Below, piece after piece: positions 3 through 10,856 of a DNA stretch of 64,000 nucleotides. The notes beneath the pieces were generated by a model. The model saw nothing but the letters and a program-made list of their open reading frames with translations, did no database searches and was not told the origin of the DNA. The stretch is from assembly GCF_018139545.1 (NCBI RefSeq), contig NZ_JAGSPJ010000004.1, positions 372,001 to 436,000 of the forward strand, given 5' to 3'. Every line of letters starts with the position of its first letter. The stretch's first letter is position 1. This stretch comes from Affinundibacterium fentianense. Lineage in GTDB: Bacteria; Pseudomonadota; Gammaproteobacteria; Burkholderiales; Burkholderiaceae_D. The translations under genes and the position numbers were made by a program.

Positions 3-599
3 AACAAATTCTTTCTGTTCTTAATACAGCAAGATTTCGTTTTAAAACAACTCGGTTTTAGCCGGAATCAAATCGAAAAACTCAGAAATGCCAATCAAGA
101 CGCGCTTTCAGAGATTTTGGTAAAGAGATTGAGACGACTGTTTTGTGACTTTAACTTCCATGAAAATTACTTCGCACAACAGGCCATTGGTCAACCTTAC
201 CTCGCAAACGAGCAAGAGAGCCTGCCACTCCACTTACAAAAAACGGTATTTCAAGCACTGCGCCAATATGCGCATAGGATTCACCCACATCGAGAAAATT
301 TACTGCAGTTCCTAAAAAAACAAAAAGACAAGTCTGTCGATGCTTTTGTACTTCAAGACCATCTCGACTATTTGAATCCTCATGCCATTCAAGATCTATG
401 GCGAGAAATTGATCGTTGTGCGAGCCATGGGGCGAAGGTTTTGATACGTAGTTTAGGTGCCCAATTCCCGCTTCCACAAATCGTCTTTAAGACAACATTA
501 GCGAAGTGGAAAACCGATTCTATGTACAACCAATACTTACAAAACCAAGACCGAAGTAGCTTATACGGTAGCCTATTTGTACTTGAGAATATAAATTAA
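3..599 (+). CDS. BtaA-like DUF3419 protein (S-adenosylmethionine:diacylglycerol 3-amino-3-carboxypropyltransferase), 3' part
   Basis: The frame is open from the left window edge, so the 5' end is missing; a TTG at 117 is internal, because conserved-looking sequence continues upstream of it. The C-terminal part carries the hallmarks of the DUF3419/BtaA family: a VLQDHLDYL segment, a W-R-E-I helix, a GAKVLIRS strand typical of a SAM-binding fold, and a DRSSLYGS motif near the end. Family members move the 3-amino-3-carboxypropyl group of SAM to diacylglycerol, the first step of betaine-lipid synthesis, and release methylthioadenosine. The next gene encodes the nucleosidase that destroys that by-product. 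The family call is from recognised motifs; the substrate is inferred. Confidence 0.72.
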   Translation, partial: NKFFLFLIQQDFVLKQLGFSRNQIEKLRNANQDALSEILVKRLRRLFCDFNFHENYFAQQAIGQPYLANEQESLPLHLQKTVFQALRQYAHRIHPHRENLLQFLKKQKDKSVDAFVLQDHLDYLNPHAIQDLWREIDRCASHGAKVLIRSLGAQFPLPQIVFKTTLAKWKTDSMYNQYLQNQDRSSLYGSLFVLENIN

Positions 600-896
600 G
601 ATAAAAATAGAAAGGTAAAAAAACACTTTTTCCTGTGGATAAGTCTTTGCATATCTTGAGGAGTTAATGTGCAAAACCATTACCACTGTCCACACTCGAA
701 ATCTTATGCAGAAACTATTCTTTTTCTGTACAAGCATTGTCCTAGTCTTTATCCTTGCTCTAAACCGTTGATTACATGGTAGTAAATCGACTTGTCCACA
801 AAAATAGTCATCGTTAACTACTATTACTATGTATATATATACCTTATGTATACAAAGCAAAGAGCTTGTTTCTCGATCTACATTTCTAAATCTCTT
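600..896. other. AT-rich intergenic segment with DnaA boxes (origin-like module 1)
   Basis: About 300 bases without a convincing gene. It holds a perfect DnaA box on the minus strand (TGTGGATAA, 634-642), a weak box at 686-694 and an 8/9 box on the plus strand (TTGTCCACA, 792-800). Twelve bases after that box come GTTAAC (813-818), then a run of CTA/TTA triplets (818-830) and an alternating TATATATA tract (831-841). Read on the bottom strand the triplets are 3'-GAT-GAT-AAT-GAT-5', which fits the DnaA-trio consensus in the orientation known from Bacillus origins. A second copy lies at 1695-1990. Motifs are seen directly; origin function is inference. Confidence 0.6.
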
Positions 897-1694
897 ATGA
901 CCATTTCCTTAAAACCAAATACAACTGGCCTCATCTTTGCAATGCGTGAAGAACAAGAGGGATTAGAATCGTTTATTCAAAATAAACAGGTTCATCAAAT
1001 TGCGAAACGTCGCTTCATTCAAGGTCAATTATGGGGTCATCCTGTCGTCATGGTTCTAGCAGGAATTGGTAAGGTCGCTGCCGCCAGTACAACGAGCCTG
1101 TTAATTCATCATTTTCAGATCAACCAATTGATTTTAAGCGGTGTTGCAGGCGCTGCTGATCCCGCCCTAAAGGTCGGGGATATTGTGATAGCGAGAGAAT
1201 TACTACAGCACGATATGAATGCCTCACCTTTATTTCCTCGTTTCGAAATTCCACTCACAGGAAAATCACGATTCTTCGTAAATAAAAATTTGCATCTAGA
1301 ATTGCAAAAAGCGACAACGCTATTTGTCCAAAATATACAAAAATACATTCCCGAGTCGCTACGAAAAGAATGGGACTTAATGAAAATTGAAATGTATTCA
1401 GGACTAGTCGCTAGCGGTGATCAATTTATTCATGAGGCAGCGATAGTAAATCAATTAAAAAAAGAATTGCCTGATCTGTTAGCGCTAGAAATGGAAGGAG
1501 CCGCGATAGCGCAAGTCTGTGATGAGCACGATTTGGAATTCGCAATCTTACGAACGATATCTGATAATGCAAACGAAACAGCGTCTATAGATTTTCAAAG
1601 TTTTGTTAATCAAATTGCTGCTCCCTATACAGTAGGAATTTTGAAAAACTATTTTGAAAATAAGGAGCAAATATTTGATACAAACAACACTTAA
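897..1694 (+). CDS. mtnN: 5'-methylthioadenosine/S-adenosylhomocysteine nucleosidase
   Basis: Hydrolyses MTA and S-adenosylhomocysteine to adenine plus the thioribose or ribosyl-homocysteine, in the cytoplasm. The frame shows the PNP/UDP phosphorylase-like fold: an N-terminal GLIFAMREEQEG (with the acid/base Glu region), SGVAGAADP and VGDIVIA, the ASGDQF loop, the LEMEGAA purine/ribose-binding motif and RTISDNA with the catalytic Asp. The frame is open from a TTG at 792, with further ATGs at 849 and 897; I chose 897 because it lies just before the first conserved strand, and no start has a clear ribosome binding site. An upstream start would overlap the DnaA-trio-like repeats. It could recycle the MTA made by the preceding BtaA-like enzyme. 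Confidence 0.88.
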   Translation: MTISLKPNTTGLIFAMREEQEGLESFIQNKQVHQIAKRRFIQGQLWGHPVVMVLAGIGKVAAASTTSLLIHHFQINQLILSGVAGAADPALKVGDIVIARELLQHDMNASPLFPRFEIPLTGKSRFFVNKNLHLELQKATTLFVQNIQKYIPESLRKEWDLMKIEMYSGLVASGDQFIHEAAIVNQLKKELPDLLALEMEGAAIAQVCDEHDLEFAILRTISDNANETASIDFQSFVNQIAAPYTVGILKNYFENKEQIFDTNNT

Positions 1695-1990
1695 GGTTGA
1701 AGTATGAAAATAATTTTATGTGAATAAACTTGTGGATAAGATCGGCAAAATTTGTGCAAAACACGTTGAAAAAGCAGAACAAGAAATTTTATTCAAAATC
1801 TATTACAGCGTCATACAAGAATTTTGAACTGACTTATGAATTGTTTAGAGCCTTGATTTTTATTAGTAAATATCGCTTATCCACAAAACTTACCAACGTT
1901 AACAACTACTACTATTCATATATATAAACTTATTCAATTAAAAGAAACAGCCCCCCGTTTTAAAGCTCCCAAATAAACAGTTTAAATAAT
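1695..1990. other. AT-rich intergenic segment with DnaA boxes (origin-like module 2)
   Basis: About 300 bases without a gene. DnaA boxes: TGTGAATAA (1719-1727, 8/9) and TGTGGATAA (1731-1739, perfect), both minus strand, then TTATCCACA (1877-1885, perfect, plus strand). Twelve bases downstream comes GTTAAC (1898-1903), then a CTACTACTATT run (1906-1916) and CATATATATAA (1917-1927). The order, the 12-base spacing from box to GTTAAC, and the roughly 150-base gap between the minus and plus boxes repeat module 1. The bottom strand reads 3'-GAT-GAT-GAT-AAG-5'. Confidence 0.6.
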
Positions 1991-2836
1991 TCACATTTGT
2001 TGAAATAAATGCGTATGATTGCGGCTTACCTCAAGTTTTTCAGAATAATTTTTTAATCCTAATAGATGACGGCCACGAATATCTCGAGTAATTTCAGCAA
2101 TTGCACTAACTCTTACCAAACTTGATCGATGGATACGCCAAAATTCTCTAGGATCTAATTCATCTTCTAATTCTTTTAATGTTTTTCGAATTAAATATTC
2201 GGCATGTTCTGTTTGAACTAAAGTATATTTTTCATCCGACTTAAAATATAAAATTTCTTTCGTACTAATCATTCGCAAACTATTACCCACACTTGCTTGT
2301 ATCCAGCGTAAATAGTCTTTTCGGGAAGTTTGGTGTTGTATCAGGTGTTGCAAAACTTGTTTGATATGTTCAGATTCAAGATCATTTTTTTCACTTTGAT
2401 TGGGTAGCGAAATCTTGCTCGCAGCATTGGAATGCGTTGGTGATGAACTACTAGGAATGGAATATTTTTTTTCTTGTATTCTCTGTTGTAAACGCAAACA
2501 CGTTTTTTGTAGTCGGTCAGTATCAATAGGTTTTAACAAATAATCTAATGCACCTTGTTCAAAGGCCTGAATCGCATATTCGTCATAAGCTGTTACAAAA
2601 ACAATTAACGCTTTTTCTGCTAATTGCATTGCAGCCTCCAGTCCGTTTTTTCCAGGCATACGTATGTCAAGAAAAATAATATTCGGTTCATATCTTTGTG
2701 CTTCATCGAATGCGATAAAACTGTTAGCAGCTTCAGACACAATCATTAAATCAGGCCAAATTTTTTGAAGTTGACGTCTCAAATGAGCCCGCATTGGCGC
2801 TTCATCATCGACCAGCATAGCCGTAATCTTATTCAT
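1991..2836 (-). CDS. LytTR-family response regulator (LytT/AlgR type)
   Basis: Cytoplasmic transcription regulator of 281 residues. The receiver domain (about residues 1-125) has the acidic pair DD at 10-11, the phospho-acceptor Asp57 in FLDIRMPG and Lys102 in LLKPID. A variable, Ser/Asn-rich linker (about 125-170) leads to a LytTR DNA-binding domain (about 175-280). It follows the sensor kinase gene by 29 bases on the same strand and is presumably its partner. Target genes cannot be read from the window. There is no strong ribosome binding site before the ATG. Confidence 0.9.
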   Translation of the reverse strand: MNKITAMLVDDEAPMRAHLRRQLQKIWPDLMIVSEAANSFIAFDEAQRYEPNIIFLDIRMPGKNGLEAAMQLAEKALIVFVTAYDEYAIQAFEQGALDYLLKPIDTDRLQKTCLRLQQRIQEKKYSIPSSSSPTHSNAASKISLPNQSEKNDLESEHIKQVLQHLIQHQTSRKDYLRWIQASVGNSLRMISTKEILYFKSDEKYTLVQTEHAEYLIRKTLKELEDELDPREFWRIHRSSLVRVSAIAEITRDIRGRHLLGLKNYSEKLEVSRNHTHLFQQM

Positions 2837-3757: not shown

Positions 3758-4120
3758 TTAGCTCTCCTCGTCAGGCTTTTTGTCCTCGGTTTGCTGAATT
3801 GCTTGATTTACTATTTGTTGATCTTCTTTTCCGATAAAACATTTCAATAGTAAAGAGCCAATGACCAACCAAGTCGCCAAAGACTGTACGCAAAGTAATC
3901 CACCCGCAATTAAGGTCAATAAGCTAGCCAAAAATAACTTTCCCCAAGAAACATCAATAATCCATTCAAGATATTGTTCCCATATGTATTTTGCTGTATC
4001 GGCAACATTGAGAACAAACTCTAAAACAGGATTTTTTTTTGAGGTATTCATGTTTTGACTCCCAGAAGTGAATGATTCAGTGTGTTCGTTATTGTTTAAA
4101 TTGGTTTTATCGTTATTCAT
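3758..4120 (-). CDS. Small membrane protein, paralogue of the adjacent kinase's membrane domain
   Basis: A 120-residue protein starting at the ATG preceded by GAGGAG; a longer frame to 4189 lacks this signal. The first 35 or so residues are Asn/Ser/Thr-rich and hydrophilic. They are followed by an amphipathic helix with W-E-Q-Y-L-E-W, an SWG motif and two membrane helices, then a short charged tail. The segment lines up with residues 10-75 of the next protein: W…(F/L)(E/D)W…SWG.L…S.L..I.G..L…GS…K, without gaps. It lacks the kinase and ATPase domains. It may form mixed dimers with the kinase or sense the signal for it. I know of no named family for it. Confidence 0.75.
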   Translation of the reverse strand: MNNDKTNLNNNEHTESFTSGSQNMNTSKKNPVLEFVLNVADTAKYIWEQYLEWIIDVSWGKLFLASLLTLIAGGLLCVQSLATWLVIGSLLLKCFIGKEDQQIVNQAIQQTEDKKPDEES

Positions 4121-7890: not shown

Positions 7891-8484
7891 ATGATCAAAG
7901 CTTTGATCCAACTGTTGAGATCAACTTTTTTTGCATGGGCGCTGATATGTATTGCGCCCATGCTGCTTTCATCCGTCCCTGCTAATGCAACAGGGGTTGA
8001 AGTGATGACGGCAAAATTAGAAAGCACTGACGAAGGTTATCGCGTTTTCGTATCTTTTTCCTTTGAACTTGGGCCTGATTTGAAAAACGCGATCAATGAA
8101 GGTATTCCTGTCTCCTTCACAGCGGAGGTTGAAATTAACCGACCTCGGTGGTATTGGTTTGATGAAAAAACAATACGTTCAAATCAAACAGTCAAAATTC
8201 AATATGATCTGTGGCGTCGACAATATACAGCGGCTGTTAATGGTGGCTTGAAACAAAGTTTTAATAGCTTGGAAGAAGCCATGGCATTAGTTTGGCGCCC
8301 GCGGCGCTGGCTAGTCGCAGAAAAAAATGTTTTGCAGCCAGGTGCCGTCTATAACGTCGGAGTCCGTCTTAAACTGGATAGCAATCAATTATCCAAACCC
8401 ATGTTAATAACTTCGTTTAGCAATAGTGATTGGCGCTTAGCCTCTGAGTGGAAACGATTTACATTCAAGGCTGACGACAAGTGA
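7891..8484 (+). CDS. DUF4390 domain-containing exported protein
   Basis: A 197-residue protein with a signal peptide (basic start, hydrophobic core to about residue 30, A-N-A cleavage region). The mature part is a predicted beta-rich DUF4390 domain containing a W-Y-W-F-D motif and an RRWLVAEK segment. It has no known biochemical function. Its reading frame overlaps the start of the ntrY-like kinase gene by four bases, as is usual for this locus in Burkholderiales, which suggests the protein works with or senses for that kinase; that is inference. Confidence 0.85.
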   Translation: MIKALIQLLRSTFFAWALICIAPMLLSSVPANATGVEVMTAKLESTDEGYRVFVSFSFELGPDLKNAINEGIPVSFTAEVEINRPRWYWFDEKTIRSNQTVKIQYDLWRRQYTAAVNGGLKQSFNSLEEAMALVWRPRRWLVAEKNVLQPGAVYNVGVRLKLDSNQLSKPMLITSFSNSDWRLASEWKRFTFKADDK

Positions 8485-10856
8485 CACGATTTTTGCGGCA
8501 AGGCTTAGTTATTGGCGGCGTGATTATGAGCGTCCTGTTGTTCTTTTTGATGACAGCGACTGAAAATTCTAGCCGGTTTCGAGCGATAAACGAAAATTTA
8601 CATCTCTTGCTGATGGCCAACGCTGTAGTTGCATTCGGCTTGTTAGCAATGGTCAGTGCCTTACTCTGGCAGCTGATTAGACGGTTCCGTCAGCGTGAGT
8701 TCGGCTCGCGGATTATGACCCGGTTGGTTATCTTATTTGCTCTAACGGGCATTTTGCCTGGCTCGCTAATTTACCTAGTCTCAGTTCAGTTTGTCACGAG
8801 TTCTATTGATTCGTGGTTCTTAGTGAAGCTAGACCCTTTGTTAAATTCTGGGGTTGATCTTGGACATACAGCGCTTGACTATACTCTGCGCGATCTTGAG
8901 GGCAAGGCTCGTAGCATGGCAAATCAACTATCCGATGTCGCCGATAGTTCAATGTCGTCTTCACTTCCAATTCGCCTCTCTCGCTTGCGCGAACAGATGC
9001 AGGTAAAAGAAGCGACCATCGTAAGTAATCGAGGTCGTGTTATTGCAACCGCAAATGAACATGCTGGTGACTTAGTTCCAGAGTTACCGACCGCTGCAAT
9101 GATACAAACTGCGCGAGCGGAAGGAAAATATTCACAATTTAGCAGCCATGTTGATCATACCGGTGAAGATGCGACACGCAATCTATTTACAGAAGCCCAT
9201 CAAAGTAAGCATGGTGAAAGCGGAAACCAAGAATTCCTGCGCGTGATTATTCCTTTACCGTCCACCATGATCGATTCGCGTTTTCAAAAGGAAAGAAATT
9301 ATCTGCAGGTGATTCAGGCGGTCCCTGAACTATTGGATACTCAAGCGAAGGTTTTTACGAATGCGATTGCGGAACATCGAGAGCGCTCGTCAAGCCGTAA
9401 TGGTTTGAAAAATATGTATCTAGTGACTTTGACCTTGTTGTTGTTGTTTGCAATTTTTGGCGCAATTACAGCTGCCTTTTTCATTTCTGGAGAGCTGGCA
9501 CGACCTTTATTGTTGTTAGCTGAAGGGACGAAAGCTGTAGCAGAAGGCAATCTTTCACCCCGCCCTATTACGACAACATCGGATGAATTGGGAAGTTTGA
9601 CTCAATCGTTTAATACAATGACACATCAATTGTTCGAGGCGCGCATCGCCGTTGAGCAGAATCGCAATGAATTGGAAAATGCGAAAGCCTATCTTGAATC
9701 AGTGCTCGGCAATATGTCTGCTGGCGTCATGGTGTTAGATCAAAATGCCTGTTTGGTGAGTTGTAATCACTCGGTTGAAAGGATTTTGCGTCGACAGTTT
9801 GACGCAGAAATAGGAAGACCACTTTCAGAAATTCGAGGCCTGAGCGAATTTGCAGCTGCAATTGACAAAGCTTTTTCTGAACAACATGCCCAATCAGCTG
9901 GTAGCGTTGAACAAGAGCATTGGCAACAGCAAATTGAACTATCAAGTTCGGTTTTTGAGAGCGCGGATCAAATGGACGATACCGCCAGCAATGTTGTAAC
10001 GAATAAAGAAGAAGAAAAAGGTGTGACTTTGCTCGCACGTGGTTCCCATTTACCTGTTAAATCAGGAATTGGTTATGTGATCGTTTTTGACGATATTACC
10101 AATATTATTTCTGCGCAGCGTTCGATTGCCTGGGGTGAAGTGGCGCGTCGTTTAGCACATGAAATTAAAAATCCTTTGACACCCATTCAATTGTCTGCCG
10201 AAAGATTGCAGATGAAATTATTGGATAAATTAAATGAGCCCGATGCGCAGTTTCTGAGTAAGAGCACGACCACAATTGTGAATCAAGTGACTTCGATGAA
10301 ACGTATGGTTGACGATTTTCGTGACTATGCAAAAATACCGCAGGCGGTTTTGTCCAAAATTAATTTGGCAGCTCTGATTGATGATGTCTTGCATTTGTAC
10401 TTGTCTGGTGATGGTCGCGATATTATTCATTTACAAATGCAATCAGACCTCCCTTTAATCATGGGGGATGCAACGCAATTGCGCCAAGTCATACACAATC
10501 TTTTACAAAACGCGCAAGATGCGGTGACTGAGAATCAAAAAGCGGGTCAAACACCGCATATTGATGTTGTGACTGAAGTTGTACATTACGTTAGTGCTGA
10601 TAAATCGGAACGCGTGGCAGTACGTTTATCAGTTATTGATAACGGGCCAGGATTCTCGAATAAAATATTGGCTCGAGCGTTTGAACCTTATGCTACTTCC
10701 AAGCCTCGTGGAACAGGTCTCGGTTTAGCAATGGTCAAAAAAATTGTCGATGAACATGGCGGTAAGATCGATATTCAGAATCGAAGCGACTCAAACGGTG
10801 CTAAAGTTTCGATTTTGCTGTTAAAGTTAGCACCTGATGTAAATACCACAGTATGA
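8481..10856 (+). CDS. ntrY: NtrY-type sensor histidine kinase
   Basis: Membrane histidine kinase of 791 residues starting at GTG. Three N-terminal helices (about 10-30, 43-65, 80-100) precede a periplasmic region, then a membrane helix near 310-335, a HAMP domain with ELARPLLLLAEGTKAVAEGNL, a PAS domain (about 400-540) and the kinase core. The core has the H-box RRLAHEIKNPLTPIQLSAERL, the N-box HNLLQNAQDAV, and G1/G2 motifs DNGPGF and GTGLGLAMVKKIV. NtrY kinases respond to nitrogen, redox or envelope signals and phosphorylate NtrX, which follows. The four-base overlap with DUF4390 implies one operon. Confidence 0.92.
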   Translation: MTRFLRQGLVIGGVIMSVLLFFLMTATENSSRFRAINENLHLLLMANAVVAFGLLAMVSALLWQLIRRFRQREFGSRIMTRLVILFALTGILPGSLIYLVSVQFVTSSIDSWFLVKLDPLLNSGVDLGHTALDYTLRDLEGKARSMANQLSDVADSSMSSSLPIRLSRLREQMQVKEATIVSNRGRVIATANEHAGDLVPELPTAAMIQTARAEGKYSQFSSHVDHTGEDATRNLFTEAHQSKHGESGNQEFLRVIIPLPSTMIDSRFQKERNYLQVIQAVPELLDTQAKVFTNAIAEHRERSSSRNGLKNMYLVTLTLLLLFAIFGAITAAFFISGELARPLLLLAEGTKAVAEGNLSPRPITTTSDELGSLTQSFNTMTHQLFEARIAVEQNRNELENAKAYLESVLGNMSAGVMVLDQNACLVSCNHSVERILRRQFDAEIGRPLSEIRGLSEFAAAIDKAFSEQHAQSAGSVEQEHWQQQIELSSSVFESADQMDDTASNVVTNKEEEKGVTLLARGSHLPVKSGIGYVIVFDDITNIISAQRSIAWGEVARRLAHEIKNPLTPIQLSAERLQMKLLDKLNEPDAQFLSKSTTTIVNQVTSMKRMVDDFRDYAKIPQAVLSKINLAALIDDVLHLYLSGDGRDIIHLQMQSDLPLIMGDATQLRQVIHNLLQNAQDAVTENQKAGQTPHIDVVTEVVHYVSADKSERVAVRLSVIDNGPGFSNKILARAFEPYATSKPRGTGLGLAMVKKIVDEHGGKIDIQNRSDSNGAKVSILLLKLAPDVNTTV

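Follow-up and report, generated by a model that had tools for sequence, protein, structure and literature searches.

The window, that is the whole 64-kb stretch of DNA analysed here, corresponds to positions 372001–436000 of contig C56 in assembly G000 (4.23 Mb in 65 contigs), and its closest named relatives belong to Undibacterium. At its left end, a DUF3419 gene is followed by a first DnaA-box module (copy 1), an mtnN-type nucleosidase gene, a second module (copy 2) and a gene for a LytTR response regulator, and this gene order bears out a preliminary description according to which two such modules flank mtnN. Both units follow a single plan, in which an inverted, R4-like DnaA box is located 158 bp ahead of an R1-like box; the latter has an IHF-type site at −31 and is succeeded by 12 bp, GTTAAC, a run of DnaA trios and a TATATA tract (Table 1). 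The IHF consensus was that given in the available part of an E. coli review (PMC5742627). The copies are arranged in direct tandem with an R1-to-R1 distance of 1,085 bp, and are termed first and second in the order in which they occur along the direction of the R1 box. The minus-strand TTATCCACA boxes, the plus-strand boxes (8/9 and 9/9), the 12-base gap, GTTAAC, the CTA triplets and the TATATA tracts had all been described previously for the two segments, and each was located where it had been placed. The IHF-type sites of both copies and the outer inverted box of copy 2 are additions of the present analysis, the latter giving copy 2 the same R4–R1 spacing as copy 1. Of the seven loci L025–L031, the window genome is the one in which the R1 box of copy 1 is imperfect; the remaining six have it without a mismatch.

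Table 1. Genes and origin-type elements at the left end of the window (positions are those of the window)
Feature	Position	Strand	Remark
DUF3419 gene	3..599	+	left neighbour; 5′ part outside the window
Copy 1, R4-like inverted DnaA box TTATCCACA	634..642	-	158 bp ahead of R1
Copy 1, IHF-type site AATCAACGGTTTA	761..773	-	perfect fit to consensus; 31 bp ahead of R1
Copy 1, R1-like DnaA box TTGTCCACA	792..800	+	8/9, one mismatch
Copy 1, GTTAAC and DnaA-trio run	813..830	+	3′-GAT-5′ type on the bottom strand; GTTAAC 813-818, CTA triplets 817-830
Copy 1, TATATATATA tract	832..841		presumed unwinding element
mtnN-type nucleosidase gene (Pfam PNP_UDP_1)	897..1694	+	between the copies; start codon chosen by us
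Copy 2, R4-like inverted DnaA box TTATTCACA	1719..1727	-	158 bp ahead of R1
Copy 2, second inverted DnaA box TTATCCACA	1731..1739	-	146 bp ahead of R1
Copy 2, IHF-type site AATCAAGGCTCTA	1846..1858	-	one mismatch; 31 bp ahead of R1
Copy 2, R1-like DnaA box TTATCCACA	1877..1885	+	9/9
Copy 2, GTTAAC and DnaA-trio run	1898..1915	+	GTTAAC 1898-1903, CTA triplets 1904-1915
Copy 2, AT (TATATA) tract	1918..1928		presumed unwinding element
LytTR response regulator gene	1991..2836	-	right neighbour

The 64-kb window contains three exact copies of TTATCCACA, all of them inside the modules, against an expectation of 0.45, and none of 100 dinucleotide shuffles of the window reached three or more. Across the 4.23-Mb genome, the pattern TTWTCCACA has 98 sites (71 for a reversed-pattern control), among which the module locus is the sole place with three exact TTATCCACA inside 2 kb, a DnaA-box cluster of the kind that characterises a bacterial chromosomal oriC. 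Furthermore, 452 kb of the genome was examined for DnaA boxes with at most one mismatch, and among the 134 (96 + 38) boxes obtained, R4 spacing, IHF site and GTTAAC were combined only in the two modules. A promoter scan of positions 560–2000 was uninformative, yielding two promoter-like sites versus 6.2 in shuffles. Two further groups of boxes were observed in this genome. A looser cluster at C52:100379–102308, with two exact TTATCCACA and one TTTTCCACA in 1.9 kb, could be a datA/DARS-like site, and at C56:343633–343801, 29 kb to the left of the modules, two exact minus-strand boxes lie 160 bp apart in the same orientation.

The location of the modules relative to strand asymmetry was assessed in 311,683 bases of C56. 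Cumulative GC skew reaches its minimum at C56:376027 (position 4027 of the window), where the preliminary description had suggested looking at 1–2 kb; the minimum is thus situated 2–3 kb to the right of the modules rather than exactly on them. In 8-kb steps, skew is negative in 14 of 14 steps from 264 to 376 kb and positive in 15 of the 16 steps beyond 376 kb, while further to the left (192–264 kb) six of nine steps are negative. The contig that carries the modules therefore displays the switch in asymmetry that marks an oriC. The dnaA gene, on the other hand, is located on a different contig (C62:65394–66779); the preliminary description had noted its absence from the locus. Its upstream region contains one perfect DnaA box, and no composite module (R4 spacing, IHF site, GTTAAC) was found upstream of dnaA on C62. 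Skew on this contig is mixed to the left of 56 kb (five of seven steps positive) and positive throughout from 56 kb on, with no negative arm beside dnaA in the 140 kb of C62 read. An origin at dnaA is disfavoured by this skew and by the absence of composite features there. The earlier suggestion of a second origin, in the sense of one next to a conventional origin at dnaA, is likewise not favoured. Sites matching the parS consensus were found on C56 approximately 15 kb from the modules (a perfect and a one-mismatch site at 357280 and 357975, and a two-mismatch site at 355722), and on C62 as one two-mismatch site at 69292, 2.5 kb from dnaA. The genome also encodes IHF-alpha, the gene scoring over its cut-off. 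In addition, a 234-residue frame at C52:401452–402084 has a short DnaA-family match and is possibly Hda.

Skew was also sampled in other genomes. In G006, a single contig, positive skew was obtained for all 12 stretches between 1 and 2.27 Mb and negative skew for all eight between 2.5 and 4.47 Mb; the module lies at 4.536 of 4.539 Mb, with the final 2.7 kb past it still negative, and dnaA falls within the positive arm, at 105 kb. The sign of the skew likewise changes at the module in G013 and G015, 313 and 261 kb from dnaA, respectively, with near-zero skew in the stretches between module and dnaA in G015. The skew of G036 and G089 is noisy and in rough agreement with the module, and several 20-kb loci of other genera (e.g. 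G036, G267, G110 and G066) are without a sign change beside it. G020 fits poorly: beyond the module its skew is positive at 6.4 Mb, negative at 1–10 kb and at 300 kb, and settled at 700 kb, for which rearrangement is one possible reason. Unlike in G006, the skew of this genome is undecided from 6.15 Mb on to 0.7 Mb, a stretch that covers the interval from module to dnaA and extends past it.

A DnaA-binding regulatory locus, one of the options in the preliminary description, was also considered, here in the form of a datA- or DARS-like site that would leave the actual origin at dnaA or in some other place. It is true that datA too joins DnaA boxes with an IHF site (PMC5742627, in the part available), that the authors of the Herbaspirillum seropedicae genome chose dnaA as the origin (PMC3093359, likewise), that G020 shows the poor fit described above and that a parS-like site, albeit with two mismatches, is close to dnaA. 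A datA- or DARS-like site would be expected away from the skew switch, whereas the switch occurs at the modules and not at dnaA, both on the contigs of the window genome and in G006, G013 and G015. Since, moreover, trios and AT tract are conserved, dnaA is preceded by one perfect box and none of the composite features, and the perfect parS site is 15 kb from the modules, this explanation is regarded as highly improbable. The displaced chromosomal origin, the remaining option of that description, agrees best with the switch on C56, the position of dnaA elsewhere and the conservation of boxes and triplets.

The boxes and triplets, for which the preliminary description had proposed a look at related genomes, are retained in the genus, and many other genera of the family have them as well. 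A total of 127 modules was collected from 69 of 70 loci on the basis of the box, a GTTAAC-like hexamer and the trios only (L036 and L100 are one genome, the module of which is counted twice). The inverted box is positioned 156–158 bp from R1 in 123 of these modules, and a site deviating from the IHF consensus at no more than one position is present at −31 in 120 (48 of them perfect), compared to 16 for the next best offset. The TATATA tract, present in both copies, is conserved among the family modules, while the positions between the fixed elements are mostly not conserved in the profile of the 127 modules. The R4–R1 spacing amounts to about 15 helical turns by arithmetic, and such fixed spacing with much freer sequence in between suggests that a rigid protein–DNA shape is maintained.

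The box-N10-15-GTTAAC pattern was detected in 198 of 294 family genomes, representing 27 of 44 genera, as opposed to six of 294 for the reversed-pattern control. Exact inverted R4–R1 pairs at 154–160 bp occur in 199 of the 294, with 95 genomes carrying none, 67 one, 107 two and 25 three (a tally transcribed by hand from the search table and then summed); the window genome is among the 95 owing to single mismatches, and the reversed-pattern control for inverted pairs gave none among the matches listed. Outside the family, box-GTTAAC was found in seven of 386 genomes of the order, where the reversed control matches three of the full set of 399. Exact inverted pairs, with gaps of 143–173 bp, were present there in 12 of 242 genomes; given this rarity, the module in its exact form seems for the most part restricted to the family. 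G499, a 1.2-Mb genome from a different family, has the same inverted box pair twice, at C2:41575 and 58853, 17 kb apart and with identical listed sequence. Single boxes and TATATA arise easily in AT-rich DNA, and the resemblance to an origin might in principle be fortuitous; yet the shuffles, the near-invariant spacing and the excess over the reversed control in the family reduce the likelihood of such a coincidence to a negligible level.

With respect to copy number, two complete modules were identified in 36 of 40 genus loci, three in one and a single module in three (these loci represent 39 genomes, as L036 and L100 are the same genome; L124 was left out, being from the same genome as L097). 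All 37 multi-copy genus loci are direct repeats, with R1–R1 distances of 1,027–1,103 bp where mtnN lies between the copies and 496–831 bp otherwise; the modules of G040, 484 bp apart by pattern search, failed the full module test. L037 has a single module, as has L116, a locus truncated close to the end of a contig, and in L122 the first unit is without a good IHF site, indicating that a pair of full copies can be dispensed with. In the 20-kb loci, read for 20 genomes, there are two modules in 14 cases, three in four and one in two. Three complete modules were seen in L127 of G015 (at 8622, 9453 and 10227) and in L137, L138 and L141. Multi-copy sets in the 20-kb loci are direct repeats with the sole exception of G237, where L140 carries two complete modules in opposite orientation at 8246 and 11133, 2.9 kb apart and with open frames between them. 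In L034 and L035 (G041 and G022), 19 and 18 DnaA boxes with at most one mismatch are spread across both modules, mtnN and flanks.

To what extent the modules depend on mtnN can be judged from the genomes in which this gene is found and those in which it is not. An mtnN match was obtained in 13 of 43 genus genomes (30 without), and in 12 of the 13 corresponding loci two modules enclose the gene, L037 being the remaining one. The nearest loci by mtnN (70–74% protein identity) are those of Undibacterium seohonense, U. amnicola, U. flavidum, U. baiyunense, U. macrobrachii and one Oxalobacteraceae bin. Of the 28 genus genomes queried for the box-N10-15-GTTAAC pattern, 27 carried it. All of the 28 except G006 have no mtnN match, and 26 of these 27 hold the pattern, the miss being G026, which is 83% complete. 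The notion that mtnN is a needed part of the module was consequently rejected. In six genus loci without mtnN, of which 20 kb was read, no open frame of at least 90 residues lies wholly between neighbouring modules. Five of the 13 loci examined in other genera (G089, G232, G237, G110 and G054) have an mtnN-cluster gene near the modules, and several have a nearby protein of approximately 1,220 residues, which from its sequence we presume to resemble PutA. DnaA doubles as a transcription factor and copy 1 is directly upstream of mtnN, so that the boxes might serve to regulate mtnN and its neighbours without any connection to initiation. This is considered very improbable, as the pattern persists in genomes without mtnN, copy 2 is downstream of the gene and the neighbouring genes differ between genera.

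The age of the pair was assessed in two ways. Among seven loci of the subclade to which the window belongs, the same copy compared between genomes is 84.6% identical in its upstream part and 98.6% in its downstream part (mean of both copies), while copy 1 and copy 2 of one genome are 55.4% and 68.6% identical in these parts, respectively. The higher identity of the downstream, unwinding part implies that this part appears to be under constraint in both copies. In a genus tree of 64 sequences from 32 of the 40 loci (those with exactly two modules found, L100 being dropped), the 32 first and 32 second copies are split by one branch (94/94; 96% of bootstrap trees), from which it follows that the pair looks older than the genus, the copies having apparently been kept apart through its history. 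A family tree of 66 sequences from 33 hand-picked loci (16 from the genus and 17 from the family) requires nine label changes, with copies tending to group by genus. A single ancestral duplication for the whole family is therefore unsupported; the grouping makes it likelier that the modules were duplicated repeatedly, or were homogenised ahead of the spread of each genus, and suggests that the plural module state keeps recurring in the family. In this tree the second copy of L034 (Undibacterium) falls with first copies, weakly so (68/90).

Based on the above, the locus is very probably the place where an Undibacterium starts replication of its chromosome, at a distance from dnaA. The observations behind this are the motifs, their spacing, the skew switch, the nearby parS, the conservation, the age of the pair and the IHF-alpha gene. 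Each unit fits the plans of the E. coli origin and of basal unwinding systems (BUS) apart from the R4 distance, which argues that each was built as a whole origin; we hold it to be highly likely that both are complete origins by architecture, as read from their elements, and only slightly less so that this and the origin assignment hold jointly. In such a unit, DnaA would bind the R1 and inverted R4 boxes and IHF, presumably bound 31 bp from R1, would bend the intervening DNA; DnaA would then spread from R1 onto the bottom-strand trios and open the adjacent TATATA tract, where the helicase could be loaded.

Whether both units would be able to initiate replication is, judged from their sequences, an evenly balanced question. 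It is quite conceivable, if somewhat short of probable, that the locus is the origin but that one copy performs the work while the other binds DnaA and tunes timing, in the manner of the sub-regions of bipartite origins. The Epsilonproteobacteria furnish a precedent, as both of their sub-regions bind DnaA while unwinding has been demonstrated for oriC2 only (according to the portion of PMC5043019 available), and both the imperfect R1 box of copy 1 in the window genome and the existence of at least one genus locus with one module (L037) are compatible with such a division of labour. Conversely, neither copy has lost its R1 box, IHF site, trios or AT tract, and the downstream, unwinding part, with its higher identity between genomes than the upstream part, appears constrained in both. 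We tentatively propose, with slightly less than even confidence, that much of the family possesses a natural array of two or three complete and separately competent oriC units in direct tandem, which would be maintained via repeated duplication or exchange. If so, chromosomes of this family would have several initiation sites in one locus instead of one.

Irrespective of this, the module rule (inverted box, 156–158 bp, IHF site at −31, box, 12–13 bp, GTTAAC, trios) represents a candidate origin locator for the family. It may be of use because published origin placements in the family are unsure: the authors of the Burkholderia cenocepacia genome, in the accessible text of their paper, describe the exact origin position of the main chromosome as uncertain (PMC4948915), and dnaA was the choice made for H. 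seropedicae, as mentioned.

The module shares much of its geometry with E. coli oriC. In MG1655 an IHF-type site, with two mismatches, has the identical −31 offset and strand relative to R1, on the side away from the unwinding element, and R1 lies beside the unwinding element with an inverted R4, as here; the R1–R4 distance in E. coli is 180 bp versus 158 bp in the window, and oriC is present there in a single copy. The E. coli origin, flanked by mnmG and mioC, is not adjacent to dnaA either. As set out in the available part of the review cited above (PMC5742627), bending by IHF carries the opened strand to the DnaA molecules bound at R1 and R5M, and spacing needs are strict. By analogy, the module may work like an R1–IHF–R4 oriC, although of a different subtype. 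The BUS of Bacillus subtilis and others, for which the accessible text of PMC8287927 gives a box, a spacer peaking at 10–13 bp, 3′-GAT-5′ trios and an AT-rich tract, shares box, spacer, trios and AT tract with the units described here, in which 12 bp separate the box from GTTAAC. A box with at most two mismatches, a spacer of at most 16 bp and at least three NAN trios can be recognised, the spacer being 16–18 bp if GTTAAC is assigned to it and shorter if TAAC is counted into the trios. The published BUS search narrowed to one candidate in more than 99% of genomes (PMC8287927, same text). Unlike a BUS, the present units are set in an R1–IHF–R4 frame and are doubled; the likeness to basal unwinding in Bacillus drawn in the preliminary description thus applies to the box, trio and AT part, while the module as a whole is closer to the geometry of E. 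coli oriC.

The bipartite origins of B. subtilis and Helicobacter pylori consist of two DnaA-box clusters with a gene between them, as does the locus in the window. Their clusters flank dnaA, whereas the present pair does not, dnaA being on another contig in the window genome and hundreds of kilobases away in G013 and G015; in relatives without mtnN the units are 484–831 bp apart. In contrast to the unwinding mapped to one sub-region in Epsilonproteobacteria, the units here form a direct repeat in which each appears to have an unwinding-type element of its own. On chromosome 1 of Cupriavidus metallidurans, the skew transition is likewise away from dnaA, by approximately 90 kb, and adjoins a 213-nt segment containing three perfect DnaA boxes; tandem units are not described in the available part of that report (PMC2864759). 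Putative double origins, that is more than one oriC-like region per chromosome, have been compiled by Gao in 2015 (PMC4403523), where, as far as the accessible text goes, each of the four cases in the table either has widely separated regions or is linked to a duplication of dnaA, and small oriC units in tandem are not among them. The portions of PMC12342881 and PMC7199957 that were available held nothing relevant to the arrangement, and two complete, distinct and long-kept oriC units in direct tandem are undescribed in the open PMC literature as represented by titles and starts of abstracts among the matches listed. Origins away from dnaA, as in E. coli and C. metallidurans, and bipartite origins are already known; a direct tandem of two seemingly complete oriC units would be a new arrangement of such elements.
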